From contig JAPUIX010000058.1 in the NCBI GenBank assembly GCA_027296625.1, positions 1 through 47,013 of the forward strand: DNA of 47,013 nt, in the 5' to 3' direction. The position numbers were made by a program, and so were the translations under genes. The notes below the pieces were generated by a model. That model worked only from the letters and a program-made list of their open reading frames with translations, ran no database searches and was not told where the DNA came from. This DNA comes from Gammaproteobacteria bacterium (GTDB taxonomy: Bacteria; Pseudomonadota; Gammaproteobacteria; JAKEHO01). Positions 5,337 to 39,581 of this stretch are shown here, piece after piece; the stretch's first letter is position 1; each line of letters begins with the position of its first letter.

Positions 5337-5987
5337 TCAGCCGTCCAGGATTCGATCTAGGCGATCCATGTCGTTAATTACGCGCCATTTGCCCCCACCT
5401 GATTCAACACGCTGTTGCCATGCTTCCAAGCGGTTTAAATACTCACGGGGGTCTACGTTATCACTACGGAGTTTCGTTACGTTCACTGCCACGACATCAA
5501 ATCCAGTGAGCTGCAGGGGTATGTCACGTACATAACCTTTTCTGAGGTCTTCCTTAAGGTCCGAAAAGATCAGAATGGTTTTTTTGCCGGTGCCTTTTTC
5601 ATTCAGGTATTCAATAGCTTGCAAGATGCCGCCGGTGATATCTGTATATGCCGCAGGTTTGACTTCCTTGACGAAACTATCAACGCCCTGGCGGAACTTG
5701 CGTTTCTGATGATTGGCCATACTTGGCCGGTCGTCGAATGTCACCTTGGCGACGATGTCCTTCTCACTGAAACTGCCCGTATCGATGCGAGCGACCGCGA
5801 AAGAGTCTCTTGGTTCCATCGATACTAAGATGACATTAATGACTTTTTGCGCATCCTTGAGTTCGTTTACATAGGTGCCCGAAGTATCCATCAACATGTA
5901 GACACCGCGATTTGCCGGAGTGACATCGGAACATCCCGCTAATACGCATATTGCGGCTAGCATGATGAATCCTGTTAACCGTTTCAT
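5337..5987 (-). CDS. vWA-domain lipoprotein of unknown function
   Basis: This is the last gene of a three-gene envelope operon. The 216-residue product starts with a lipoprotein signal (lipobox V-L-A-G-C, Cys 19). A von Willebrand A-like fold follows, with a MIDAS-type motif D34-T-S-G-T38, a threonine in YTDITGG and a later FSDLKED aspartate after a hydrophobic strand (KKTILIF). Standard MIDAS is D-x-S-x-S plus T plus D; here the last Ser is Thr, which can still bind metal. It should be anchored in a membrane on the periplasmic side. Its ATG shares one base with the stop of the upstream membrane-protein gene (TGATG), so translation is probably coupled. I know no characterised homologue. Confidence 0.85.
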   Translation of the reverse strand: MKRLTGFIMLAAICVLAGCSDVTPANRGVYMLMDTSGTYVNELKDAQKVINVILVSMEPRDSFAVARIDTGSFSEKDIVAKVTFDDRPSMANHQKRKFRQGVDSFVKEVKPAAYTDITGGILQAIEYLNEKGTGKKTILIFSDLKEDLRKGYVRDIPLQLTGFDVVAVNVTKLRSDNVDPREYLNRLEAWQQRVESGGGKWRVINDMDRLDRILDG

Positions 5988-7447
5988 CAGGATGTCCCTC
6001 TAATAGTCATTGTCTCAGTTTTTGGTTCAGTGTCGTCTGACACCGATTTTGGCCCCATGATGCGCTTTCTGATGTGTTTCTCGATCCACAGTGGCCCGAA
6101 GATCACGAGATCGTACACGTGTACTAGCCATTTTCCGGAATAACGAAACACGTTTCCGGTCAGGCGTAAGAGAAAGGCCATACCCCGAAGGAGGCCAATC
6201 CCAATCATTCCGAGTACGGTTCGAAGCGAATGTACAAATGTTTCCAAAGGTATTGCTACAAACACGAGTGCGAAGGGCAGGATGAATCCCAGCCCCATTT
6301 GCGCAGCGGTGGTAATCCAGATAAATTCTGATTGAAACTCTGCGATGTCGTCACCTCGAAGTAAGGCGCTGGTGGCGAGTTCATCCTGCATTAGGGTTTC
6401 GCGCAGGAAAGCCAGTCCTGCCTCTACGCTGGCGAGTGCGAACAGAATGGTAAACGTGATCCAAACCATTCGAATGCGCATTCTGTCTTGTAGCGCACCG
6501 ATCACAGGAAATAGGCGTGTAATCCGCAGGGATTCCATCAGAAATAGCCCCATGGAGATTTCGACTAGGATGATCACCAATGCGGAAATATCCGCGATCT
6601 TGAAGTTTCCAATGGTATTATGCCCACCCACCATCTCCGCCATCGGCCGAGCGATCAAGTGAAAGTTAATCATCGCACCACCCATAGCGATGATGAGGAC
6701 GATAGAAGAGATGAAAAACTGAGTGAGTTCAGATGACGACAACATGCGTACCGCACGGTCGGTTTGCTTCTGAATATTTTCATAATCATCGATGTGCCGA
6801 TCGATGACTTTAGCGCGTTCCAGCAATCTATTTACATTCTTATCAACAAGCCCAAGTGCCCGTTGTAACCTTCGCCAATGGGGCATCATTTTTGTCAGCA
6901 ATTTGTGACGAACATGAGTGGCTTTGCGGTATTCCTCCAGGGCTCTATCATGAGCCTTAACCATGGAGCCGTGGATCTCTGCAAGAATGTCGCTAACCAT
7001 GGGGTCACTCTTTGCAGGTATCTTGGCAATGGCTTCGACTGCTTTAGTCCAGGCTAGTGGTGAGGGTGGTACTTCGGTGCTTTGTTTGTAGTCCTCTTCG
7101 ATCACAGTGAATTCTTCACTGAGTTTTCTGTGCAGCGTTGGGTATTCGGCCAGGTCGCTGCTAATAGTTGTATAAACCCGCTCGAATTCCCGCTCTATAA
7201 TGCGTTCCGATGCTTCCCTTCCAGCAGCCAATAAAACTTCTTTATTACGTTGGGATAATTTCTTTTCCGCTCGCATTATGGAGTTAGCGGCTAATCGCAT
7301 GGCATGATGCAAAACGCGACTAAACGACAGGATGACACGGTGCGCAGGTGCTCTCGCAATATACAAAAGCACGGCCAGGATGATGAGCCAGATTACCCCT
7401 GACCATAAGGGATTTGGCACAATCGTATAGATATCCGAAAATGACAT
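5987..7447 (-). CDS. Large coiled-coil integral membrane protein of unknown function
   Basis: The 486-residue protein has an N-terminal membrane segment (about 14-32). A long, charged, helical, probably cytoplasmic region follows (about 40-245, rich in E, K and R with heptad-like spacing). Then come at least five hydrophobic segments (roughly 250-272, 295-318, 335-358, 385-410, 415-440) and a polar basic tail. I recognise no catalytic motif. It follows a small lipoprotein gene and overlaps a vWA lipoprotein gene by one base, so the three products probably form an envelope complex. The ATG is preceded by GGAGG at good spacing. It is not recognisably MotA/ExbB-like, and the function is unknown. 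Confidence 0.8.
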   Translation of the reverse strand: MSFSDIYTIVPNPLWSGVIWLIILAVLLYIARAPAHRVILSFSRVLHHAMRLAANSIMRAEKKLSQRNKEVLLAAGREASERIIEREFERVYTTISSDLAEYPTLHRKLSEEFTVIEEDYKQSTEVPPSPLAWTKAVEAIAKIPAKSDPMVSDILAEIHGSMVKAHDRALEEYRKATHVRHKLLTKMMPHWRRLQRALGLVDKNVNRLLERAKVIDRHIDDYENIQKQTDRAVRMLSSSELTQFFISSIVLIIAMGGAMINFHLIARPMAEMVGGHNTIGNFKIADISALVIILVEISMGLFLMESLRITRLFPVIGALQDRMRIRMVWITFTILFALASVEAGLAFLRETLMQDELATSALLRGDDIAEFQSEFIWITTAAQMGLGFILPFALVFVAIPLETFVHSLRTVLGMIGIGLLRGMAFLLRLTGNVFRYSGKWLVHVYDLVIFGPLWIEKHIRKRIMGPKSVSDDTEPKTETMTIRGTS

Positions 7448-7497
7448 AAGGGCCTCCGGGTACTGCTAACTGCTACGTTCGACGAAGAGACACCAAA

Positions 7498-7710
7498 CTA
7501 TTGACTCTCTTGGTCGATAGTTTTGCGCTGTCTGGCAGCCGCGTCCATCAAGGTCTGTTCCACACCCTTGGCTTTTTCTAAAGCGTGCACTTGAGTCTCC
7601 CATACATGATCCTCGGCACTACGCGGTTTGTTGTTATTGTCTGTATCGCTCGAACAGCCCGATAGAAGCGATATCGCAAGACACAGTGGAAAATAAAGTA
7701 GGGTTCGCAT
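7498..7710 (-). CDS. Small lipoprotein, first gene of the vWA operon
   Basis: The 70-residue product has a lipoprotein signal peptide with lipobox L-L-S-G-C (Cys 19). The remaining 51 residues are polar: an Asn/Asp-rich linker, then a short helix rich in Glu, Lys, Gln and Ala. No domain is recognisable. It is separated by about 50 bases from the coiled-coil membrane-protein gene, and all three genes of the group are on the minus strand, so they are probably co-transcribed. The lipobox and context make it a credible gene despite its size. Confidence 0.7.
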   Translation of the reverse strand: MRTLLYFPLCLAISLLSGCSSDTDNNNKPRSAEDHVWETQVHALEKAKGVEQTLMDAAARQRKTIDQESQ

Positions 7711-21765: not shown

Positions 21766-23178
21766 ATGTCGCTAGCGAAACTTCAGGATCTAATTAAAAA
21801 ACACGGTATCAAAATCGTGGACTTTCGCTTCATTGATATGCCCGGCTTATGGCAGCACTTTTCGGTGACTACTGATGAGATCAACGAGGGGTTGTTTGCA
21901 GATGGGATCGGTTTTGACGGCTCCTCGATCCGTGGTTTCCAGGAGATTCAGGAATCCGATATGGTGCTGCTTCCCGATTCAGATTCATCCTTCGTTGATC
22001 CATATTTAGAAATTCCGACGCTTGCGGTGATCTGTGATGTGCTCGAGCCGGGGCTTAAGCCCTATGCGCGAAGCCCGCGGGAGGTGGCGAAAAAGGCGGA
22101 GACATATCTCAAGTCGACAGGTATCGCCGATACGGCGTATTTTGGGCCCGAGCCGGAATTTTTTATCTTTGATGATGTTCGGTTCGATCAAAACTCGCAG
22201 TGTGGTTACTACTATGTTGATTCTGTCGAGGCGGTGTGGAACTCAGGGCGCGAGGAAAATCCGAATCTCGGTTACAAACCGCGCCACAAGGAAGGATATT
22301 TCCCAGTTCCCCCGCATGACACCCTTCAAGATATTCGCTCGGAAATAGTACTCAATCTGGTCGATGCGGGCGTGCCCTGCGAGGTGCACCATCACGAGGT
22401 GGCAACGGCTGGACAAAATGAGATCGATATGCGCTTCACCTCGCTTGTGAGGATGGCGGACAATCTCATGAAGTTTAAATACATGGTAAAGAACACCGCC
22501 CGTAAGCATGGCAAGGTTGCTACGTTTATGCCGAAGCCGGTCTATTTTGACAATGGAAGCGGTATGCATGTCCACCAGAGTCTAGCCAAGGGCGGGACGA
22601 ATCTCTTCTACGATAAGTCCGGTTATGCCCTCACGTCGCAACTCTGTATGTTTTACATCGGTGGCTTGCTCAAGCACGCGCCGGCGTTAATGGCTTTCGC
22701 CGCCCCGAGCACCAATTCCTACAAAAGGCTGGTGCCGGGATTTGAAGCCCCCGTCAATCTTACTTATTCACAGCGCAATCGCAGCGCAGCGGTACGTATT
22801 CCTGTCTACAATGAGAGCCCTGCCGCGAAGCGCATCGAGTTCCGCCCGCCCGATTGCATGGCCAATCCTTACTTGCTGTTTTCAGCACTGCTAATGGCTG
22901 GTTTGGACGGGGTTGAGAACCAGCTAGACCCGGGCGATCCCGTTGATCAAAACATGTACGAACTTCCAGACAAGATCCTGCGTAAAATAAAAACGGTGCC
23001 GGGTTCGCTCGAGGAATCCTTCATTGCGCTGGAGAAAGATCACGCCTTCTTGCTCAAAGGGGATGTCTTCACGCAGGATCTACTCGACGTTTGGGTTGAC
23101 TATAAGCGTACCAATGAGATTGATGAGGTAAGTTCGCGCCCGCACCCGTGGGAGTTTTATCTTTACTTCGACCTTTAA
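21766..23178 (+). CDS. glnA: Glutamine synthetase type I
   Basis: GlnA makes glutamine from glutamate, ammonia and ATP as a cytoplasmic dodecamer. The 470 residues include the N-terminal DGSSIRGFQ, the metal-site EPEFF, the HHHEVATAGQNEIDMRF block, the nucleotide region GSGMHVHQSL, NRSAAVRIP and EFRPPDC. Tyr 398 in NMYELPDKI corresponds to the adenylylation site of E. coli GS (Tyr 397), so control by GlnE is likely. The ATG has a strong AGGAGGT site. The upstream region carries candidate NtrC and sigma-54 elements, and a GC-rich hairpin follows the stop. Confidence 0.98.
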   Translation: MSLAKLQDLIKKHGIKIVDFRFIDMPGLWQHFSVTTDEINEGLFADGIGFDGSSIRGFQEIQESDMVLLPDSDSSFVDPYLEIPTLAVICDVLEPGLKPYARSPREVAKKAETYLKSTGIADTAYFGPEPEFFIFDDVRFDQNSQCGYYYVDSVEAVWNSGREENPNLGYKPRHKEGYFPVPPHDTLQDIRSEIVLNLVDAGVPCEVHHHEVATAGQNEIDMRFTSLVRMADNLMKFKYMVKNTARKHGKVATFMPKPVYFDNGSGMHVHQSLAKGGTNLFYDKSGYALTSQLCMFYIGGLLKHAPALMAFAAPSTNSYKRLVPGFEAPVNLTYSQRNRSAAVRIPVYNESPAAKRIEFRPPDCMANPYLLFSALLMAGLDGVENQLDPGDPVDQNMYELPDKILRKIKTVPGSLEESFIALEKDHAFLLKGDVFTQDLLDVWVDYKRTNEIDEVSSRPHPWEFYLYFDL

Positions 23179-23188
23179 GTCCCCTACG

Positions 23189-23212
23189 CGGCCGGCGGTG
23201 CGCCGCCGGCCG
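23189..23212 (+). terminator. GC-rich hairpin after glnA, probable terminator
   Basis: CGGCCGGCGG and CCGCCGGCCG form a perfect ten-base stem around a TGCG loop, ten bases after the glnA stop. The T-rich stretch follows only after about 17 bases (AAGTTTTTCT), so it is not a textbook intrinsic terminator. It may stop or attenuate transcription, or protect the glnA message 3' end. Confidence 0.65.
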
Positions 23213-23353
23213 TCGTCACTTCAAGTTTTTCTACGATTCCTTTGTTGTCATTATTCAGTTTTCGACGGGTTCGCAAAGAACTGCCGCGAGCGCAGATTTG
23301 CTTCAACGGGCAATATTTAGCAGGAACCAATCGGGGCCCTGGTGGGTCTTTAC

Positions 23354-23382
23354 TTGAGGACGGTCAATGCATTGGTTATGCT
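23354..23382 (+). promoter_or_regulatory. Candidate sigma-70 promoter of the first DUF4124 gene
   Basis: TTGAGG at 23354-23359 and TATGCT at 23377-23382 are separated by 17 bases; each matches the consensus at four of six positions. Transcription would start at about the ATG at 23389, which has no visible ribosome-binding site, so the message could be leaderless. Confidence 0.3.
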
Positions 23383-23388
23383 GAATAG

Positions 23389-23901
23389 ATGCGTATCTTA
23401 TTCTTGATCCTCGGTTTTATATTGTCGTTCTCGGTATCGGCCGTCGTCTATCGATGGGTCGATGAGAATGGCCATGTCGTCTATTCGGACAGACCGCAAC
23501 CCGGTGCCCAAGTCCTTGAGGAAAAGGATGTTCAAACTGTTGATGCGCCCCCTGTTGAGCTGATCAGACCTAAATCAGATGCGAAAACATCGGCGAAAAA
23601 TGGATTTGCAGGCTACAAACGTGTCGCCGTGATGAGTCCACAGAATGACGAACCCGTCAGGGAAAACGCAGGAAATGTGACGGTATCAGTCACGCTCGAG
23701 CCTGGGTTGCAAACCAAGCTGGGGCACAAGCTCGCCTTGTTTGTGGATGGCGCACAGATTTCAGAACCGGGTACGGCGACCCAGTTTCAGCTGAACAATA
23801 TGAACCGCGGTGCACATACCCTTGAAGCCAAGGTGATTGGTGCCGATGGCAGCGTCATCAAGAGTTCCTCTCCGGTCACCTTCCATATGTTGCGTGTTTA
23901 G
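23389..23901 (+). CDS. DUF4124-domain exported protein, copy 1
   Basis: The 170-residue product has a signal peptide (about 1-18) followed by the DUF4124 block VYRWVDENGHVVYSDRPQPGA. Its C-terminal half resembles an Ig/fibronectin-like beta domain (from about 70, V-T-V-S-V-T-L-E-P and L-A-L-F-V-D-G). DUF4124 proteins are periplasmic and their role is unknown. From family memory, genes of this type are often found between glnA and ntrB in gammaproteobacteria. The ATG has no clear Shine-Dalgarno sequence. A closely similar copy follows after 35 bases. Confidence 0.85.
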   Translation: MRILFLILGFILSFSVSAVVYRWVDENGHVVYSDRPQPGAQVLEEKDVQTVDAPPVELIRPKSDAKTSAKNGFAGYKRVAVMSPQNDEPVRENAGNVTVSVTLEPGLQTKLGHKLALFVDGAQISEPGTATQFQLNNMNRGAHTLEAKVIGADGSVIKSSSPVTFHMLRV

Positions 23902-24437
23902 AGGTTTGCCGGCCAAACATTGGCTATCGGAAATCTATGCGTCCCCTCTTGTTGACGTTTGCTCTTGCGGTGTCACTTGCGGTCTCGGCCGTCACGTATC
24001 GATGGGTCGATGAGCAGGGCAACGTCGTCTATTCGGACAAGCCGCATCCCGGTGCCGAAGTCATCGAGGAGAAAGAAGTCCAAACGATACATGCGCCGCC
24101 TGTGCCACCGATAACACCGCGGGAGTCGACAGCGCCACCAGCAGTTGCCGGCTACGAACGCGTCGCCGTGGTGAGTCCAGAGGATGACACCCAGATCAGA
24201 GAAAATGCAGGGAATGTGACGGTGACTATCACCGTCGAGCCGGCGCTGCAGACCAAGCTGGGCCACAAGCTCGCCTTGTTCGTGGACGGCGCACAGTTTT
24301 CAGAGCCAAGCACGGCGACCCAGTTTCAGTTGATTAATATGGACCGGGGCACGCATACCCTCGAGGCCAAGATCATTGGTTCGGATGGTGAGGTGATCAT
24401 AAGCTCCCCACCATCCGAGTTCCATTTATTGCGTCAC
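23389..24437 (+). repeat. Tandem duplication of a DUF4124 gene
   Basis: The segments 23389-23901 and 23937-24437 encode paralogues that align from the signal peptide to FH-x-L-R near their ends. DNA identity is high in several stretches, for instance ACGGCGACCCAGTTTCAG and CACAAGCTCGCCTTGTT occur in both copies. The copies diverge in the linker around residues 50-75, and only the second has a Pro-rich tail. Confidence 0.8.
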
Positions 24438-24518
24438 TCCGTATTGCATCCGACGCCAGACCTGGGTGTTCCCACCCCAATCCCACCCGTTGTCGTTCCC
24501 GCTGGCGGCGGGCCGTAG
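23937..24518 (+). CDS. DUF4124-domain exported protein, copy 2
   Basis: The 193-residue paralogue of the preceding gene has a signal peptide ending near residue 18, then TYRWVDEQGNVVYSDKPHPGA. A Pro-rich linker (about 54-70) leads to the beta-rich domain ending near residue 167. It differs by a tail of about 26 residues rich in Pro and Gly (PTPDLGVPTPIPPVVVP), which might contact the cell wall or a partner. The ribosome-binding site is weak. Its place between glnA and ntrB suggests nitrogen-linked expression, but nothing in the sequence shows a nitrogen function. Confidence 0.85.
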   Translation: MRPLLLTFALAVSLAVSAVTYRWVDEQGNVVYSDKPHPGAEVIEEKEVQTIHAPPVPPITPRESTAPPAVAGYERVAVVSPEDDTQIRENAGNVTVTITVEPALQTKLGHKLALFVDGAQFSEPSTATQFQLINMDRGTHTLEAKIIGSDGEVIISSPPSEFHLLRHSVLHPTPDLGVPTPIPPVVVPAGGGP

Positions 24519-24727
24519 TCTTTAATACACCTCCACACGAGTCCTGCTAAGCCATCGGTAGACCGTTGTTCTGCTCCAACCTGGCCTGAATCTTGCCGCT
24601 TATTCATTAACGGGCGGTTCCGCCACATCGCATGCCGGTGCCTTGTGGGCGATAATGTCCTAACGACTTGATTTATAGGATTATTCGATTGCGGGAACGG
24701 TTTCGTACGGATGGATAGGGTGTCCTT

Positions 24728-24744
24728 TGCACCAAGATGGTGCA
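24728..24744. promoter_or_regulatory. Perfect NtrC-binding site upstream of ntrB
   Basis: TGCACCAAGATGGTGCA is exactly TGCACC-N5-GGTGCA, the NtrC (NRI) consensus. It ends 17 bases before the ATG of ntrB. In E. coli a site near glnL (ntrB) lets phosphorylated NtrC repress a local promoter, so autoregulation is the likely role here. Confidence 0.75.
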
Positions 24745-24761
24745 ATAATGCCCCGTTGACT

Positions 24762-25826
24762 ATGATCAAATCGGAACAGGCGCGACGTCTATTCGATCAT
24801 CTCACCACGGCAGTTTTGATGTTCGATGGGGAGCTCCGGCTCGCGGCCATCAACGCGTCTGGTGAGGACCTGCTGTCCGTCAGCGCTCGCCAAGTGCTGG
24901 GCCTGAAGGCGCAAGTGATCTGGCCGGATGCATCCATGTTTACTGGCACGCTGGAACGGTCATCTGTGAGTCAGGAGCCGTTTACGGAACGGGGGGTGGA
25001 ACTGCATCTTCCGGGTGGTAAGACAATGATGGTGGATTACACGGTGACCCCGATGGAGGAGAGTCAAGACGCCATTGCCCTTTTGGTTGAGCTGACCGAC
25101 GTGAGTGTGCGCCGTCGGATCGTCCGTGAAGAAGCGCTCGTAACCCAGAGCGAAGTCGCCAGGGCGCTCATCCGCGGCATGGCCCACGAGATCAAAAACC
25201 CCCTCGGTGGCCTCCGGGGCGCAGCCCAGTTGCTGGGGCGAGAACTTGAAGATCCAAAATTTGCGGAATACACGCGTATCATCATTGGTGAGGCTGATCG
25301 GTTGCAGCAGCTGGTGGACCGCATGCTGGCCCCCAACAGTCTCCCGAAAAAGAGCTTGGTCAACATTCATGAGGTGCTGGAATATTTGTGCAGCCTTGTG
25401 GAAGCCGAGACCAGTGCGGGTGTCACCATTGTGCGAGACTACGATCCGAGCCTGCCTGAGTTGAGTGCGGATCGCGAACAGCTGATCCAAGCGCTGTTGA
25501 ACCTTGTAAGAAACGCTGTGGAGGCGGTGGGTGTATCAGGTGAGATCACGTTACGCACCCGTCCGCAACGTCAAGTCACCATCGGACAGACGCGTTATAA
25601 GCTTGTCATCCGCGTCGATGTCATCGACAACGGCCCCGGCGTTCCACCCGAGATCGAACACGGTATTTTCTATCCGATGATCACCGGTCGCAATGACGGT
25701 ACTGGGCTCGGGCTCCCTATCGCACAAACGTTGATTCAACGGCACGGTGGTTTAATCGAGTTTGACAGCCAGCCCGGAAAAACAGTGTTTACTGTCTGGC
25801 TTCCGCTGGAGGGAGAGAATGGATAA
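24762..25826 (+). CDS. ntrB: Nitrogen regulation sensor histidine kinase NtrB
   Basis: NtrB (GlnL, NRII) is the cytoplasmic kinase/phosphatase that sets NtrC phosphorylation in response to PII. With the start at 24762 it has 354 residues: a PAS domain (about 5-115), the phosphorylated His 142 in GMAHEIKNPLGG, N-box NLVRNAVEA, G1 DNGPGVP and G2 GTGLGLPIA. I preferred MIKSEQARRLF to an upstream codon at 24711, because the longer frame would include the NtrC site and its extra residues do not look like a PAS start. Its TAA lies inside the ntrC start region, an eight-base overlap. Confidence 0.95.
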   Translation: MIKSEQARRLFDHLTTAVLMFDGELRLAAINASGEDLLSVSARQVLGLKAQVIWPDASMFTGTLERSSVSQEPFTERGVELHLPGGKTMMVDYTVTPMEESQDAIALLVELTDVSVRRRIVREEALVTQSEVARALIRGMAHEIKNPLGGLRGAAQLLGRELEDPKFAEYTRIIIGEADRLQQLVDRMLAPNSLPKKSLVNIHEVLEYLCSLVEAETSAGVTIVRDYDPSLPELSADREQLIQALLNLVRNAVEAVGVSGEITLRTRPQRQVTIGQTRYKLVIRVDVIDNGPGVPPEIEHGIFYPMITGRNDGTGLGLPIAQTLIQRHGGLIEFDSQPGKTVFTVWLPLEGENG

Positions 25827-27222
25827 AAAACGCGAGGTCTGGATCGTCGATGATGACCGCTCCATCCGCTGGGTGTTGGAAAAGGCGCTTACCCAAGCCG
25901 ATATGAACGTGACGAGCTTTGACAGGGCCGAGCCCATCATGGTGCGGCTTGGCGAGGAGACGCCTGACGTCATCATTTCTGATATCCGGATGCCCGGGAG
26001 TGATGGTCTCACCATGCTCAAGCAGGTAAAGCGGGCGCACCCAGACCTACCGGTCATCATCATGACCGCCTATTCGGATCTTGATAACGCCGTTGCGTCG
26101 TTCAAAGGCGGAGCATTCGATTACCTTGCAAAACCATTTGACGTGGATGAGGTCGTGAGCTTGGTTCAGCGGGCCGTAACACAAAACCGTGAGCGTGAAG
26201 CCGATCAGTTAGAGGGCGCCGAGGCCCGAGTGCCGGAGATCATCGGTGCAGCGCCTGTCATGCAGGAGGTCTTTCGGGCAATCGGTAGGCTCTCGCGTTC
26301 ACATGTTACCGTGCTTATTACCGGCGAGTCAGGGACGGGTAAGGAACTTGTTGCGCACGCCTTGCATCGACACAGTCCCCGTGCTGCTGCGCCGTTTATT
26401 GCGTTGAATACTTCGGCTATCCCACGTGAATTGCTGGAATCGGAACTCTTCGGCCACGAGCGGGGTGCTTTCACCGGCGCTCAGACTGAGCGAATCGGCC
26501 GTTTCGAGCAGGCCAACGGCGGGACCTTGTTCCTGGATGAGATCGGCGACATGTCGAATGAACTTCAGACGCGGCTCTTGCGAGTCCTCGCTAACGGGGA
26601 TTTCTACCGGGTCGGTGGGCAGGTGCAAATCACAGTGGATGTCCGTGTGATTGCTGCGACCCACCAGGACCTCGACGCCCGGGTAAAGGCCGGCACGTTT
26701 CGTGACGATTTATTCCATCGTTTGAATGTCATTCGTGTTCACCTGCCAGCACTACGCGAGCGTAGGGAAGACATCATATTATTGGCGAAACACTTTCTTG
26801 CGTTGGCGGCAAGGGAACTGGATGTCCCGCCCAAGACCTTGCTCGGTGAGACCGAAGCGTACCTCACAGGCCTCGATTGGCCGGGGAATGTCAGGCAAAT
26901 TGAAAATGTCTGCCGCTGGGTGACGGTGATGGCGCCGGCTCAGGAGATTCGTGTGGCGGATCTACCGCCGGAACTAAGCGGATCAACAGCATCTCAGTTC
27001 GGTGATTCCGACTGGGAAAGCATGTTGAAATTATGGGCGGAAGGTTGTTTGGCCCGTGGGGAGACGGGAGTCGTCGAGCAAGCTTTGCCCCGGTTTGAGC
27101 GGATCCTAATCGAGGCAGCCTTAAAGCAAACGGGTGGTCGCCGGCAGGATGCAGCTAGGTTTCTCGGATGGGGCCGAAATACCCTGACCCGCAAGATTAA
27201 GGAACTTGGGATCGAACGATAA
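25819..27222 (+). CDS. ntrC: Nitrogen response regulator NtrC, sigma-54 activator
   Basis: NtrC (GlnG, NRI) activates sigma-54 promoters of nitrogen-assimilation genes when phosphorylated by NtrB. From 25819 it has 467 residues. The receiver has acidic residues 11-13, phosphoacceptor Asp 55 (SDIRMPG) and Lys 105. The AAA+ domain has Walker A GESGTGKE (169-176), the sigma-54 contact loop GAFTGA (216-221) and Walker B GGTLFLDE (234-241). The C-terminal Fis-type helix-turn-helix is GGRRQDAARFLGWGRNTL. The ATG overlaps the end of ntrB by eight bases (GGAGGGAGAG upstream). Candidate target sites are present before glnA and before ntrB. Confidence 0.97.
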   Translation: MDKKREVWIVDDDRSIRWVLEKALTQADMNVTSFDRAEPIMVRLGEETPDVIISDIRMPGSDGLTMLKQVKRAHPDLPVIIMTAYSDLDNAVASFKGGAFDYLAKPFDVDEVVSLVQRAVTQNREREADQLEGAEARVPEIIGAAPVMQEVFRAIGRLSRSHVTVLITGESGTGKELVAHALHRHSPRAAAPFIALNTSAIPRELLESELFGHERGAFTGAQTERIGRFEQANGGTLFLDEIGDMSNELQTRLLRVLANGDFYRVGGQVQITVDVRVIAATHQDLDARVKAGTFRDDLFHRLNVIRVHLPALRERREDIILLAKHFLALAARELDVPPKTLLGETEAYLTGLDWPGNVRQIENVCRWVTVMAPAQEIRVADLPPELSGSTASQFGDSDWESMLKLWAEGCLARGETGVVEQALPRFERILIEAALKQTGGRRQDAARFLGWGRNTLTRKIKELGIER

Positions 27223-34755: not shown

Positions 34756-35946
34756 TTATTGTTGGGGCAGGACCAAGGATTCGGATTTTGCTTCTGACTC
34801 CAGAGGCTTGATGAGGTCATCCAAATGCTTGGTAAGTATGGCGATCTTGAACTCGGGGATGACAAAGGCCCAATCAGATAGCACTTCGTTTAGCGTCGCG
34901 ACTTCTTGTTCCACTTCTTCCTTGCTCTTAAGTCTATGTCGTGTTTCCTCTTCATTGGGCACTTCAGTGTTCTTGCCGGGCCCCTTGGGCGCGGCGCTTA
35001 TGTCGCCTTCGCTAGCGGGCACATCATCGGCTTCGATCGCCGGCACAGCAGACTCGTCGAAAGCAAACTCAAACGTTGAATAACTCTTAGTGTCTACGTC
35101 ACGTGTGGTGATTGTCGCAATGAGGCCGTCGAACGTCGTTACCGTCGTAACGACACTCTCGCTCGCCGGTGGGAGGTTACTTCTTGCGTCGACATCATCC
35201 AGGCGAAACTCTTCCAATGCAGTAGCCAGGCTGTTGAGCGCAACCTGGGACTTTAATTTCATGCCGTCCGGGATGTCGGTGAGCGTATAGTCTTTCTCAT
35301 CCGTGCTCGCTCGGCTGATCGTCACCTGATTCCCGTCTGGATGTTTAGCAGTCACTTCCCGGACTCGACCTGAAGCAATATCGACAATGTCCGGGTTCAG
35401 CCAGCTTGTCACCGTCGCATCAATATCTAGATCACCTTCAACCAGTAGGGCCTGGGGTGTATCCGCCTTGCGCACGTAGAGCGCGGGTGGGCCAGTTCCT
35501 GTTCTGGTCAATCGATCTTTCCCTACGATGATCGAACCCATGATCTTTCCTTCCCGGTCTTTGAGTGTGATAAGGATCGACTTGGAATCTTCATCATCCA
35601 CATCCTTCACACCGAGCCGCGAATAAAGGCTGGGGTTCCTCGTTTTTCCTTCCAGCACACGAAGTTGTGCCATGCCCACAATGCTGGCTTTTACCTTCTC
35701 GAATAGCGCGGGATAGCCACCCGAACTCTCGATCACCCATCCATCACCCTGTTGTGTGAGCGTGACACCAGCGTTTCTTGTGCGGACTTCGACACGGGCG
35801 ACATCATTGATGTTGGGCATTAATTCCGGGAAGAGGATTGCTTTATCCAGTTCGGTTTGCGGTGCGCGCTGATAGACGATGATCGCAGCGGCAATAATCA
35901 CTACTACTGTAACAACCGTGAGAGTGAGAAAGGTGCTTTTCTTCAT
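34756..35946 (-). CDS. DUF4340-domain membrane-anchored protein
   Basis: The 396-residue protein has one N-terminal membrane segment (about 5-25). A long soluble, probably periplasmic, region of repeated beta-type modules follows (for example V-T-L-T-Q-Q-G-D-G-W-V-I-E and LYSRLGVKDVDDEDSKSI), typical of DUF4340. An acidic, Pro-rich linker lies at about 300-330, followed by a helical tail. DUF4340 proteins accompany Gld-type ABC transporters in many bacteria, and their role is unknown. It is the last gene of a four-gene minus-strand operon, starting 27 bases after the GldG-like gene. Confidence 0.85.
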   Translation of the reverse strand: MKKSTFLTLTVVTVVVIIAAAIIVYQRAPQTELDKAILFPELMPNINDVARVEVRTRNAGVTLTQQGDGWVIESSGGYPALFEKVKASIVGMAQLRVLEGKTRNPSLYSRLGVKDVDDEDSKSILITLKDREGKIMGSIIVGKDRLTRTGTGPPALYVRKADTPQALLVEGDLDIDATVTSWLNPDIVDIASGRVREVTAKHPDGNQVTISRASTDEKDYTLTDIPDGMKLKSQVALNSLATALEEFRLDDVDARSNLPPASESVVTTVTTFDGLIATITTRDVDTKSYSTFEFAFDESAVPAIEADDVPASEGDISAAPKGPGKNTEVPNEEETRHRLKSKEEVEQEVATLNEVLSDWAFVIPEFKIAILTKHLDDLIKPLESEAKSESLVLPQQ

Positions 35947-35973
35947 AGCGATATCCCTAATCGGCGCGATACG

Positions 35974-37860
35974 CTATGCGCGGCGATGTGTCCGATAGAG
36001 CCATACACCGATGGCAATGAGTCCAATGAGCAACGGAATGAGACCAATATTGATAAAGCGTAGCTGAGCGCCTAATCTTTCGATGTTTTTTTGCAGGTCA
36101 TGCTGCACGGCGCGCAGATCCTTGCGGACTGTTAGTTGCTCCTGACGAAATTTTTCAAGTTCCTGAGCCTGTGCGGGGCTGAGAATAAGCGAGCTGTCTG
36201 TCCCTTGTTTTTGCTGTAGTTCCGTGATCTTTCGTTCTGTTTCCTCAAGCTTGGTCTGGAGAGCGTGTTCCTGGTCACGGAAACGCGTTTCTGCTTCGCG
36301 TCTGATGTCCTCCACCCGTTCGAAAGGTCTGGCGTGTTTGCCGCGGCTACGCAGGCTGATAAGGTCATCGCTTCCCCCGAGATTTTCCAGGGCGTTGATC
36401 ACAAAATCTCCATTGTTTGCTATCGGTTGGGGAACGCGCATCCCGTAGAAATTTTGGATCTGTACCCAGAATTGGTCGCTTAGCATGTCAGTGTCAGCGA
36501 CAACGATGAGATTAACTGGTTCTGCAGACTCGCTGATAAAGTTTGGGTCTTCGGTTGCTTCATCCTCGTCGTCTTCCTTTGGTTTTCCATCTGGGAATGC
36601 GGTTTTGACCGTGCCACTGATCCTTCCTGCGAGCGTAAGCTTTTTGCCTTCCGGCTTGTAGGACTTGAGGAGCACGGTGGGATCACGTTGGAAGATAACG
36701 CCGTCCCGTTCCATCTTCATAGATCGTTCTCCCGTCTCAATGAGTGGGATAAACTCAATTTCCGCGTCCTCCTTTTTCTGAAGGATTCCTGTGCTCCCAA
36801 CATTCATAACGGTCAGCTCGCTTGTCACGAAGTCATCCGAGTTGAAGTTGTCGGAGGTCAGCCGGAGCCATGGGAGGTACTCTATTTCCTGTGGCCCGCG
36901 GGGGCCGATGTGTTGCACTCGAATTGCTGCGTCCAGATCTCCTGCAATCTTGCCGTCGACAAGTTCCAGGCCCCATGCATCAAACAAGGTCTGGAGGTCT
37001 GAGCTGCGTTCGGGTAGCGCCATCGGATTACGAGGATCGGGCCGTGCATCGTCGGCCTCTGAGAGGGGGTCAACGAAGATGATCGCCTTACCACCCTTCA
37101 GTACGAATTGCTCGATGGCATATAGTGTCTGGTCATTAACATTCTTGGGGTGGACAACCATCAGCACGTCTACGTCATCATCGATCTCTCGAGTTTGCGA
37201 GCCAAGATTGCGCACGTTGAAGAATTCCATCATTGCTGACGTAATCGCCCAAGGTGGGGCTGGTCGTGGCGGGGGACTTATCTGATCCCGACTCGCGCCA
37301 AATAGAGGTAGAGGACTTAATATGGCCACGACCCGCTTTTTTGGGTTGGCAAGGTCATAGATTAATCGGGTTAGGTCGTATTCCAGCGATGCTTCTTTGT
37401 TTGGCCGGAAGAACGGAACAATGGCCTCATCATCGGTGGAGTTGGTTCCCACTAAGCCAAAGTATGCAAGGTCACCGGCTGAGTTGACTGGCACGGTTTG
37501 CAGTCCATAGGCTACTGCTTGATCTTCCTCTTCAGAGAAAGGCTCAACGTCAAAAATCGTGAGCTTCAATTTACCATTGGCGTGTGCAACGTACTCTCCA
37601 AGCAAGTCTCGAACGCGAATTCCATAGTTCAGCAGAAGCGGAAATCCGCTAAATTGTCTTTCCGAGAAGTAGAATCTGAGGTTGATCGGCTCATCCAGGC
37701 TGTTAAGGATGTTTATCGTTCCTTCGGATAGGGTAAATAGCTTGTTATTGGTTAGGTCGAGCCGCTGAGTGGTGAATGTTGCGTTTGACAGTATGTTTAT
37801 GGCTATGAAGAGCCCTGCCGCAAGTACTAGACTTGTCGCAGTCAATAATTTTCTGTTCAT
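35974..37860 (-). CDS. GldG-like ABC transporter auxiliary protein
   Basis: The 628-residue protein has membrane segments at the N-terminus (about 7-27) and near the C-terminus (about 600-622), flanking a large periplasmic region. That region reads as the ABC-transporter-auxiliary fold of the GldG family: LTNNKLFTLSEGT, the FDVEPFSEEEDQA strand and VMVVHPKNVNDQTLYAIEQFVLKGGK. A coiled coil (about 520-600, rich in Glu, Gln and Arg) precedes the last helix. GldG works with GldA and GldF in Bacteroidetes gliding, but homologues occur widely in non-gliding bacteria with unknown substrates. Confidence 0.87.
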   Translation of the reverse strand: MNRKLLTATSLVLAAGLFIAINILSNATFTTQRLDLTNNKLFTLSEGTINILNSLDEPINLRFYFSERQFSGFPLLLNYGIRVRDLLGEYVAHANGKLKLTIFDVEPFSEEEDQAVAYGLQTVPVNSAGDLAYFGLVGTNSTDDEAIVPFFRPNKEASLEYDLTRLIYDLANPKKRVVAILSPLPLFGASRDQISPPPRPAPPWAITSAMMEFFNVRNLGSQTREIDDDVDVLMVVHPKNVNDQTLYAIEQFVLKGGKAIIFVDPLSEADDARPDPRNPMALPERSSDLQTLFDAWGLELVDGKIAGDLDAAIRVQHIGPRGPQEIEYLPWLRLTSDNFNSDDFVTSELTVMNVGSTGILQKKEDAEIEFIPLIETGERSMKMERDGVIFQRDPTVLLKSYKPEGKKLTLAGRISGTVKTAFPDGKPKEDDEDEATEDPNFISESAEPVNLIVVADTDMLSDQFWVQIQNFYGMRVPQPIANNGDFVINALENLGGSDDLISLRSRGKHARPFERVEDIRREAETRFRDQEHALQTKLEETERKITELQQKQGTDSSLILSPAQAQELEKFRQEQLTVRKDLRAVQHDLQKNIERLGAQLRFINIGLIPLLIGLIAIGVWLYRTHRRA

Positions 37861-37877
37861 CTCGTTCTGATTTTTCC

Positions 37878-38612
37878 TTATGCTGCTTTTTTTATCTCAA
37901 TTGCAACGATGTTGGCGTACAACCAAAAGCAGATCAGCGTTGCGAAGTAAATGACATCACGAATGTCAATCACGCCTTTTTTAATGGATTCGAAATGAGT
38001 AAAAAAGCTGAATGAACTGATGACATTTACAATGGCCTGTGGTGCCCAGCCCCGAAAAAAGTCGACCACAAGGGGGAAACCGCTCATGATGAAACAAAAA
38101 GAGATTACGACGCTCACCACAAACGCAATAACCTGGCTTTTTGTGAGAGCTGAAATACACGAGCCTATTGCCAGAAAACTGCCTGCCATCAAGAGGCTAC
38201 CGAAGTAGCCTGCAAGGATGACTGTATTATCTGGATTGCCCAGGTAGTTCACCGTCATCCACATTGGAAAGGTCAAAGCCAATGCGACCGCCGTGAATGC
38301 CCAAGCTGCGAGAAATTTGCCAATCACCGCTTGCGGTAACGTAATGGGCAGTGTTATCAATAATTCAATCGTGCCGGTTTTTAGTTCTTCTGACCAAAGT
38401 CGCATTGCAATTGCTGGCATCAAAAAAAGATAGAGCCAGAGATGGAAGCGGAAGAATGGTTCAAGATCGGCTTGGTTACGTTCATAAAAGGCACCAAGAT
38501 AGAACGTAAAAATGCCGGTTAGAAAAAGAAAGATCACGATAAAGACATAGGCTACAGGTGTAGCGAAATATCCGGTGAGTTCACGCTTGAAAATGGCAAT
38601 AATGCTTCTCAT
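37878..38612 (-). CDS. ABC transporter permease, ABC-2/GldF-like
   Basis: The 244-residue protein has six hydrophobic segments, starting with IAIFKRELTGYFATPVAYVF, an N-terminus common to GldF and other ABC-2 permeases. LWSEELKTGTIELLITLPI is the cytoplasmic loop that contacts the ATPase in this family. It lies between the ATPase gene (24 bases) and the GldG-like gene, so it is the membrane core of this exporter. Substrate unknown. Confidence 0.9.
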   Translation of the reverse strand: MRSIIAIFKRELTGYFATPVAYVFIVIFLFLTGIFTFYLGAFYERNQADLEPFFRFHLWLYLFLMPAIAMRLWSEELKTGTIELLITLPITLPQAVIGKFLAAWAFTAVALALTFPMWMTVNYLGNPDNTVILAGYFGSLLMAGSFLAIGSCISALTKSQVIAFVVSVVISFCFIMSGFPLVVDFFRGWAPQAIVNVISSFSFFTHFESIKKGVIDIRDVIYFATLICFWLYANIVAIEIKKAA

Positions 38613-38636
38613 GATACTTGTGCCTTGCCTTCTTTG

Positions 38637-39581
38637 TTAAGACTCGGTGGTAATAATGCGGAACACCTCGTCCAGTCGTCCAGCCTCGACGCGCATTTCG
38701 GTAATGACCCATCCATTCGAGTGCACACAGTCACTCACGACCGAAACAATTGATTGCCCATTCTCGGGGACAACCACCAGATGAGTTGTACCATCGATGC
38801 GTGCAAGTTCCTCCAGTGATGCAACATTTTTAAGACCCGCAAGCTTTGCCTTGTCCTCTTCCGTGAGCTCTGACTTTATTGTTAATGAGACAGCGTTATG
38901 GAAACGGGACTTCGCTGCAAGTTCTTCGGGGCTGCCATCAAAAAGAAGATTCCCATTGGAAATGATGATGGCTCGCGTGCAAACAGAATCTACTTCCTCA
39001 AGGATGTGAGTAGAGATAACGATGGCTTTATCTTTCGCCATCTCAGTAATCAAGGTCCTCACCTCATATTTCTGATTAGGGTCCAATCCGTCAGTTGGTT
39101 CGTCCAGGACAAGGACCTCCGGGTCATGCAACAAAGCCTGTGCAAGCCCGACACGACGTTTGTAACCCTTGGACAGCGTCTCGATGCGCTGATCCATCAC
39201 CGACTCTAGTCGGATTTTTCTTACCACATCGTTTATACGGCTTTCCTTATATTGGCCGTTCAGACCACGAATCGCGGCGATAAAGTTGAGAAACGAAGTC
39301 GGTGTCATCTCCCCGTACAGGGGTGCTCCCTCCGGGAGATAGCCAATTCGTTCCTTTACTTGGATGGGTTCATCGATGACGTCGTGGCCACAGACGGTAA
39401 CCGTACCGCTGGTGGGTTCTAGAAACCCCGTTATCATCTTCATGGTGGTGGACTTCCCTGCGCCGTTCGGGCCCAGGAAGCCAAGTACCTCGCCGTAGGC
39501 CACCCTGAACGACATATCACGAACGGCGTGCAAAGGGCCGAATCGTTTATTCAGCTTGTTGGTTTCAATCGCAATTTTCAT
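38637..39581 (-). CDS. ABC transporter ATP-binding protein, GldA-like
   Basis: The 314-residue ATPase shows Walker A GPNGAGKST (37-45), Q-loop YLPEGAPLYGEMT, signature LSKGYKRRVGLAQAL, Walker B VLVLDEPTDGLDP and the switch His in VISTHILEEV. A C-terminal domain of about 90 residues follows, as in GldA and other ABC-2 exporter ATPases. It is the first gene of the operon, so its promoter should lie within 39582-39908 on the minus strand. Confidence 0.93.
   Translation of the reverse strand: MKIAIETNKLNKRFGPLHAVRDMSFRVAYGEVLGFLGPNGAGKSTTMKMITGFLEPTSGTVTVCGHDVIDEPIQVKERIGYLPEGAPLYGEMTPTSFLNFIAAIRGLNGQYKESRINDVVRKIRLESVMDQRIETLSKGYKRRVGLAQALLHDPEVLVLDEPTDGLDPNQKYEVRTLITEMAKDKAIVISTHILEEVDSVCTRAIIISNGNLLFDGSPEELAAKSRFHNAVSLTIKSELTEEDKAKLAGLKNVASLEELARIDGTTHLVVVPENGQSIVSVVSDCVHSNGWVITEMRVEAGRLDEVFRIITTES

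Follow-up and report, generated by a model that had tools for sequence, protein, structure and literature searches.

In the Rcs system, RcsF binds the periplasmic domain of IgaA and thereby triggers the response (PMC5978795). PilY1, a protein associated with type IV pili, carries a von Willebrand A (vWA) domain that has been tied to surface sensing (PMC9210963). Other bacterial systems that combine a vWA domain with a MIDAS motif are BatA/BatB and the MoxR-associated RavA-ViaA and NorQ-NorD. The locus described below also encodes a vWA protein with a MIDAS-type motif (DxSxT), which is here a small lipoprotein accompanied by a constant membrane partner.

The analyzed DNA (hereafter, the window) is a stretch of 47,013 nucleotides that comprises positions 1-47,013 of contig JAPUIX010000058.1 from Gammaproteobacteria bacterium (JAKEHO01; assembly GCA_027296625.1). 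The original prediction described an envelope operon at 5337-7710 encoding a small lipoprotein (SML), a membrane protein (MP), and a vWA lipoprotein (VWA). An ORF check confirmed three genes at these coordinates, all on the minus strand, and the lipoboxes of the first and third products (Table 1). The base shared by the second and third genes was likewise borne out, as were the membrane segments of MP (five clear hydrophobic ones and a weaker sixth) and its charged helical region. Two other gene groups were observed in the window: (i) a glutamine synthetase gene followed by genes for a PAS/HisKA kinase and a sigma-54-activating response regulator (21766-27222), in an NtrB/NtrC-like arrangement, and (ii) an ABC-transporter cluster with DUF4340 and ABC_transp_aux proteins (34756-39581), which presumably resembles gliding-type (GldFG-like) transporters.

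Table 1. Genes and sequence features of the SML-MP-VWA locus in window coordinates
Feature	Position	Strand	Remarks
SML, 70-aa lipoprotein	7498..7710	-	Lipobox LLSGC; separate widespread family, genus-specific neighbor
MP, 486-aa predicted inner-membrane protein	5987..7447	-	First gene of the conserved pair; without known family
MP residues 32-243, predicted long helical hairpin (helices 32-99 and 149-226)	6719..7354	-	DSSP of model; predicted cytoplasmic
MP residues 244-429, predicted C-terminal membrane domain, 4-5 segments	6161..6718	-	Hydropathy and model
TGATG, one-base overlap of MP stop and VWA start	5985..5989	-	Putative translational coupling
VWA, 216-aa lipoprotein with predicted von Willebrand A domain	5337..5987	-	Second gene of the pair; lipobox LAGC; ORF, AlphaFold2, Foldseek, adjacency
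VWA lipobox cysteine C19	5931..5933	-	Invariant in alignment; +2 residue Ser
VWA MIDAS motif 1, D34-T-S36-G-T38	5874..5888	-	DxSxT
VWA MIDAS Thr115	5643..5645	-	Alignment
VWA MIDAS Asp143	5559..5561	-	Alignment

Predicted structures of the lipoprotein and the membrane protein

The AlphaFold2 model of VWA (pLDDT 94.3) has an alpha/beta, Rossmann-like vWA fold, and a Foldseek comparison of this model with the PDB matched many vWA domains with E-values down to 2e-7. The Pfam family VWA_2 scores 21.2 bits, under its gathering cut-off of 27 bits, which is a detection threshold and not a structural criterion; VWA_2 was matched at E<=0.01 in 54 of 75 VWA homologues. Sequence evidence for the vWA assignment is thus weak, whereas the modeled structure makes it secure: VWA is predicted to be a true vWA protein, and the original assignment of the third gene was right, with AlphaFold2 and Foldseek being decisive. 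The first MIDAS motif of VWA is DTSGT, that is, DxSxT rather than the canonical DxSxS, and 119 of 129 homologues retain this motif together with T115 and D143. The substitution of threonine for serine may still permit metal binding.

The residue at position +2 of VWA is serine in 71 of 128 homologues and aspartate or glutamate in 7. According to the sorting rule of Escherichia coli lipoproteins, serine at this position directs a lipoprotein to the outer membrane. Outer-membrane sorting is therefore predicted for VWA under this rule, which may not be that of the host. Such a location fits poorly with direct contact to MP, an inner-membrane protein for which short periplasmic loops are predicted.

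Hydropathy analysis of MP gave hydrophobic segments at approximately 13-31, 244-262, 284-302, 330-348, and 381-399, and a weaker one at 411-429. The AlphaFold2 model (mean pLDDT 88.8, pTM 0.71), read through its secondary-structure string, has main helices by DSSP at 13-30, 32-99, 149-226, 230-273, 284-306, 321-363, 376-395, and 398-448. The predicted layout consists of an N-terminal membrane helix, a hairpin of approximately 10 nm (helices of 68 and 78 residues at 0.15 nm per residue), and a membrane domain; the periplasmic loops (residues 263-284 and 349-378) are predicted to be short, and no large periplasmic domain is present in this layout. Just after the first membrane helix, TM1, MP of the window has five K/R and no D/E residues (family mean, 4.9 to 0.4). 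Because of this positive charge, the hairpin is probably cytoplasmic, and the earlier proposal that the helical region reaches into the cytoplasm is supported as a prediction.

No Pfam or NCBIfam family and no sequence relative in the PDB was matched by MP, and a fold search of its model against the PDB gave no match at E<=0.001. The original prediction that the middle protein falls outside characterized families accordingly stands, and the MP family appears to be undescribed. Weak sequence matches in the PDB (GPCR fusions and a designed bundle) and to Pfam coiled-coil families were judged compositional.

One residue of MP, Glu271, was considered as a candidate MIDAS ligand and rejected. All 5 copies that lack a lipoprotein have lost this residue and all 4 that have a degenerate one retain it, but by our estimate about one column of this kind among 92 would arise by chance. 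Copies whose partner no longer has MIDAS residues retain it too, and two pairs whose MIDAS is intact have alanine at this position; Glu271 was therefore not used as evidence.

Distribution of the gene pair

In all 80 loci retrieved, some of them cut by contig ends, VWA lies directly behind MP; these were the best 80 of 441 relatives from the contig search, so that this set is biased towards close relatives. Across a total of 136 loci, a set in which certain contigs appear twice, 131 show the two genes side by side. The 136 comprise 125 loci with an intact VWA gene, three with a gene truncated at a contig end, three with a degenerate partner, and five with none. The three partners were called degenerate vWA proteins from their position and from residual similarity judged by eye. 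The divergent MP copies L177, L178, and L180 have a lipoprotein-like partner without MIDAS residues, and no partner gene was found for the divergent copies L034, L179, L181, L182, and L184. In most relatives, MP and VWA genes share a four-base ATGA overlap or are separated by a gap of a few bases.

MP is present in 16 of 94 relatives and, within the class, in 53 of the 370 genomes sampled, or about one in seven. Genomes were drawn evenly from GTDB species; many are metagenome assemblies, and gene absences can thus be due to missing contigs. MP was also found in other proteobacterial classes, with named records from Kiloniellales, Mariprofundaceae, and Ghiorsea. Further relatives occur in Hydrogenovibrio and Thiohalophilus thiocyanatoxydans. 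These relatives were retrieved with an alignment query, whereas a single-protein query of genome contigs returned nothing; a plasmid search gave no match. The window's genome, approximately 97.7% complete, carries one more MP-VWA pair, which is located on a different contig, shows 60% identity, and belongs to a different old branch; this pair (L002, on contig C23 of G000) has a FabH-like gene upstream. The mutual information calculated for MP and VWA is dominated by ancestry (effective sequence number, 58).

MP and VWA are an uncharacterized unit conserved across many lineages as a pair and not as a trio, and no description of this pair was found in literature searches.

Genomic linkages specific to single clades

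Two kinds of genes adjoin the pair in particular clades of the MP family, as defined by a quick LG+G4 tree that contains long branches. The first is a histidine kinase and response regulator. Of 370 genomes, 12 encode a dedicated response regulator, and each of these also has MP (hypergeometric p of about 2e-11, ancestry ignored); they represent ten families and three gene arrangements. The regulator gene is located directly next to MP in 11 of the 12 (in G208, its neighbor is a second, partial copy of MP) and 7.3 kb away in the other one. Kinase and regulator together adjoin the MP-VWA pair in ten loci (L026, L027, L029, L030, L148, L151, L152, L157, L159, and L165).

The regulator consists of a receiver and a winged helix. 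Its best NCBIfam match is to TIGR03787/TIGR03785, the proteobacterial dedicated sortase two-component system, of which it is not a member (40.5 bits vs. a cut-off of 335.7 bits). The linked kinase has HATPase_c with an intact ATPase domain, two membrane helices, and little periplasmic part, and thus could need an external sensor. No Pfam HisKA match was obtained for this kinase, which carries an extra C-terminal region. The regulator is absent from the window's genome.

The second linkage involves fliA, which is located directly upstream of MP in 30 loci, all from one clade. Farther upstream, cheR-cheD-cheB are found in some loci and fliF-fliG-fliH-fliI in others; DUF1249 and Sel1/SPOR genes lie downstream of the pair. 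Sigma-28-like boxes with at least 10 of 12 matching positions were identified upstream of MP in 8 of 27 fliA loci vs. 6 of 106 other loci (p 0.0014, ancestry ignored), and approximately one would be expected in shuffled sequence of the fliA loci. FliF is encoded in 41 of 53 MP-positive vs. 165 of 317 MP-negative genomes (p 5e-4, ancestry ignored). FliF was not found in the remaining 12 genomes with MP, that of the window among them, and on these grounds a necessary flagellar role of MP was rejected. As FliF is missing from both the window's genome and its sister, the flagellar link is not general. The flanks of the pair in other clades contain no common envelope machine. As the kinase/regulator and fliA linkages are each confined to one clade, each counts as a single ancestral association.

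Possible functions of the pair and comparison with known systems

Tentatively, and at somewhat less than even confidence, we propose that MP and VWA constitute a two-gene signaling module that connects the envelope to the cytoplasm. In this mechanism, (i) VWA would bind an envelope ligand or partner through its metal site, (ii) it would then influence MP at its short periplasmic loops, either directly or via a third component, (iii) MP would pass the change of state through its membrane domain to the cytoplasmic hairpin, and (iv) the hairpin would engage an output that differs between lineages. This output could be the kinase and regulator in one clade, probably the flagellar/chemotaxis program in another, and some other partner in the non-flagellated organism of the window; joint action of the two proteins, with an output rewired between lineages, would be the simplest account.

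Several observations point to signaling: the pair is conserved, even among paralogues whose lipoprotein lacks MIDAS; the genes are tightly coupled in most loci, and two ancient copies are kept in the window's genome; both the kinase/regulator and the fliA linkage, the latter with its sigma-28-like boxes, connect the pair with regulatory genes; and the vWA domain with MIDAS is predicted to lie outside the cytoplasm, with the hairpin beside the positively charged segment after TM1. The main weakness of this reading is one of geometry, since the +2 serine would place VWA in the outer membrane, where MP would be beyond the range of a short linker. In addition, the linkages are each limited to a single clade, and both the regulator and FliF are absent from the window's genome. 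The further proposal of a new class of trans-envelope sensors, in which a MIDAS lipoprotein gates MP with its 10 nm arm and the outputs (a private two-component system or sigma-28 and chemotaxis) are interchangeable, is in our estimate unlikely. If the pair is a sensor, it would supply a further, vWA-based route for signals across the Gram-negative envelope. The kinase/regulator and fliA linkages are two entry points to what it senses and controls.

Instead of a sensor, the pair could have a structural or assembly role in the envelope, for instance, in motility or cell-wall-linked machines, which we consider rather unlikely. The long, rigid hairpin predicted for MP would suit such a role, and so would the surroundings in one clade, where fliA, che, and fliF-fliI genes precede the pair and Sel1/SPOR and DUF1249 genes follow it. 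However, the FliF-negative genomes with MP, the window's among them, and the lack of a common envelope machine beside the pair in other clades argue against this role.

It is doubtful that MP is a channel, a mechanosensitive pore, or a transporter, with VWA as its extracytoplasmic regulatory subunit. Subunits of the alpha2delta type, which bear vWA domains, regulate calcium channels. The matches of the VWA model include the vWA domains of alpha2delta-1, CACHD1, and CLCA1, the membrane domain of MP is multi-span, and TTYH proteins and MscK are among the best, though insignificant, fold matches of MP (E 0.06-0.17). These vWA matches are, however, generic to the fold, MP itself has no fold match at the threshold given above, and a regulatory role agrees better with the clade-specific linkages.

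That SML, MP, and VWA form one complex, as originally proposed, is highly improbable: the three genes share a strand and short gaps (50 nt between SML and MP in the window), and their order is kept in the only other genome of the genus, but SML belongs to a separate family with matches at E<=0.01, some of them weak, in 53 of the 370 genomes from the class, mostly apart from MP. SML adjoins MP only in this genus, and elsewhere the region upstream of MP contains isolated, unrelated lipobox-like ORFs and no recurring small-lipoprotein family. The claim of a three-gene unit co-occurring across genomes therefore stands for the MP-VWA pair, present in many lineages, and fails for SML, a chance neighbor of this pair. 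Judging from its divergence from the same-genus copy (dN 0.34, dS 0.96, dN/dS of about 0.35), SML looks like a real gene that is not part of the conserved unit. Members of the SML family (7498-7710 and L199-L206) are approximately 70-90 aa long and, in the copies read, have in common an 'LEKAKGVEQTL'-like helix of the pattern 'LEKA..VEQTL'; the family has no NCBIfam or Pfam match above cut-off. Two other associations suggested for the locus were not recovered: the adjacent peptidoglycan hydrolase gene (LysM/transglycosylase) is matched in no other related locus, and no link to defense was seen, since PADLOC gave no match for the three window proteins. The linked response regulator likewise had no PADLOC match.

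Turning back to MP and VWA as a putative signaling module, we compared it with the described systems. The fold search with VWA also matched BatB (3ibs) and NorD; unlike the BatA/BatB and MoxR-associated proteins, VWA is a lipoprotein with no membrane helix past the signal peptide. A MoxR partnership was rejected, as in 40 MP-positive genomes all of the listed PF07726 matches above cut-off lie more than 5 kb from MP; the nearest is 8.5 kb away (G045), and the MoxR gene of the window's genome is on another contig. PilY1 shares the vWA domain, whereas VWA is a small lipoprotein constantly accompanied by MP, and the genes that recur beside the pair include no noted pilus genes. The Rcs system (RcsF-IgaA-RcsCDB) resembles the pair in combining a lipoprotein with a multi-span inner-membrane protein that has a cytoplasmic part, and one MP clade has a linked histidine kinase and regulator as well. 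It differs in that MP has no large periplasmic domain, VWA is built on a vWA domain, and a kinase is linked to only a minority of the pairs. With no homology to RcsF or IgaA being claimed, Rcs may be regarded as the nearest architectural analogy to the MP-VWA pair.
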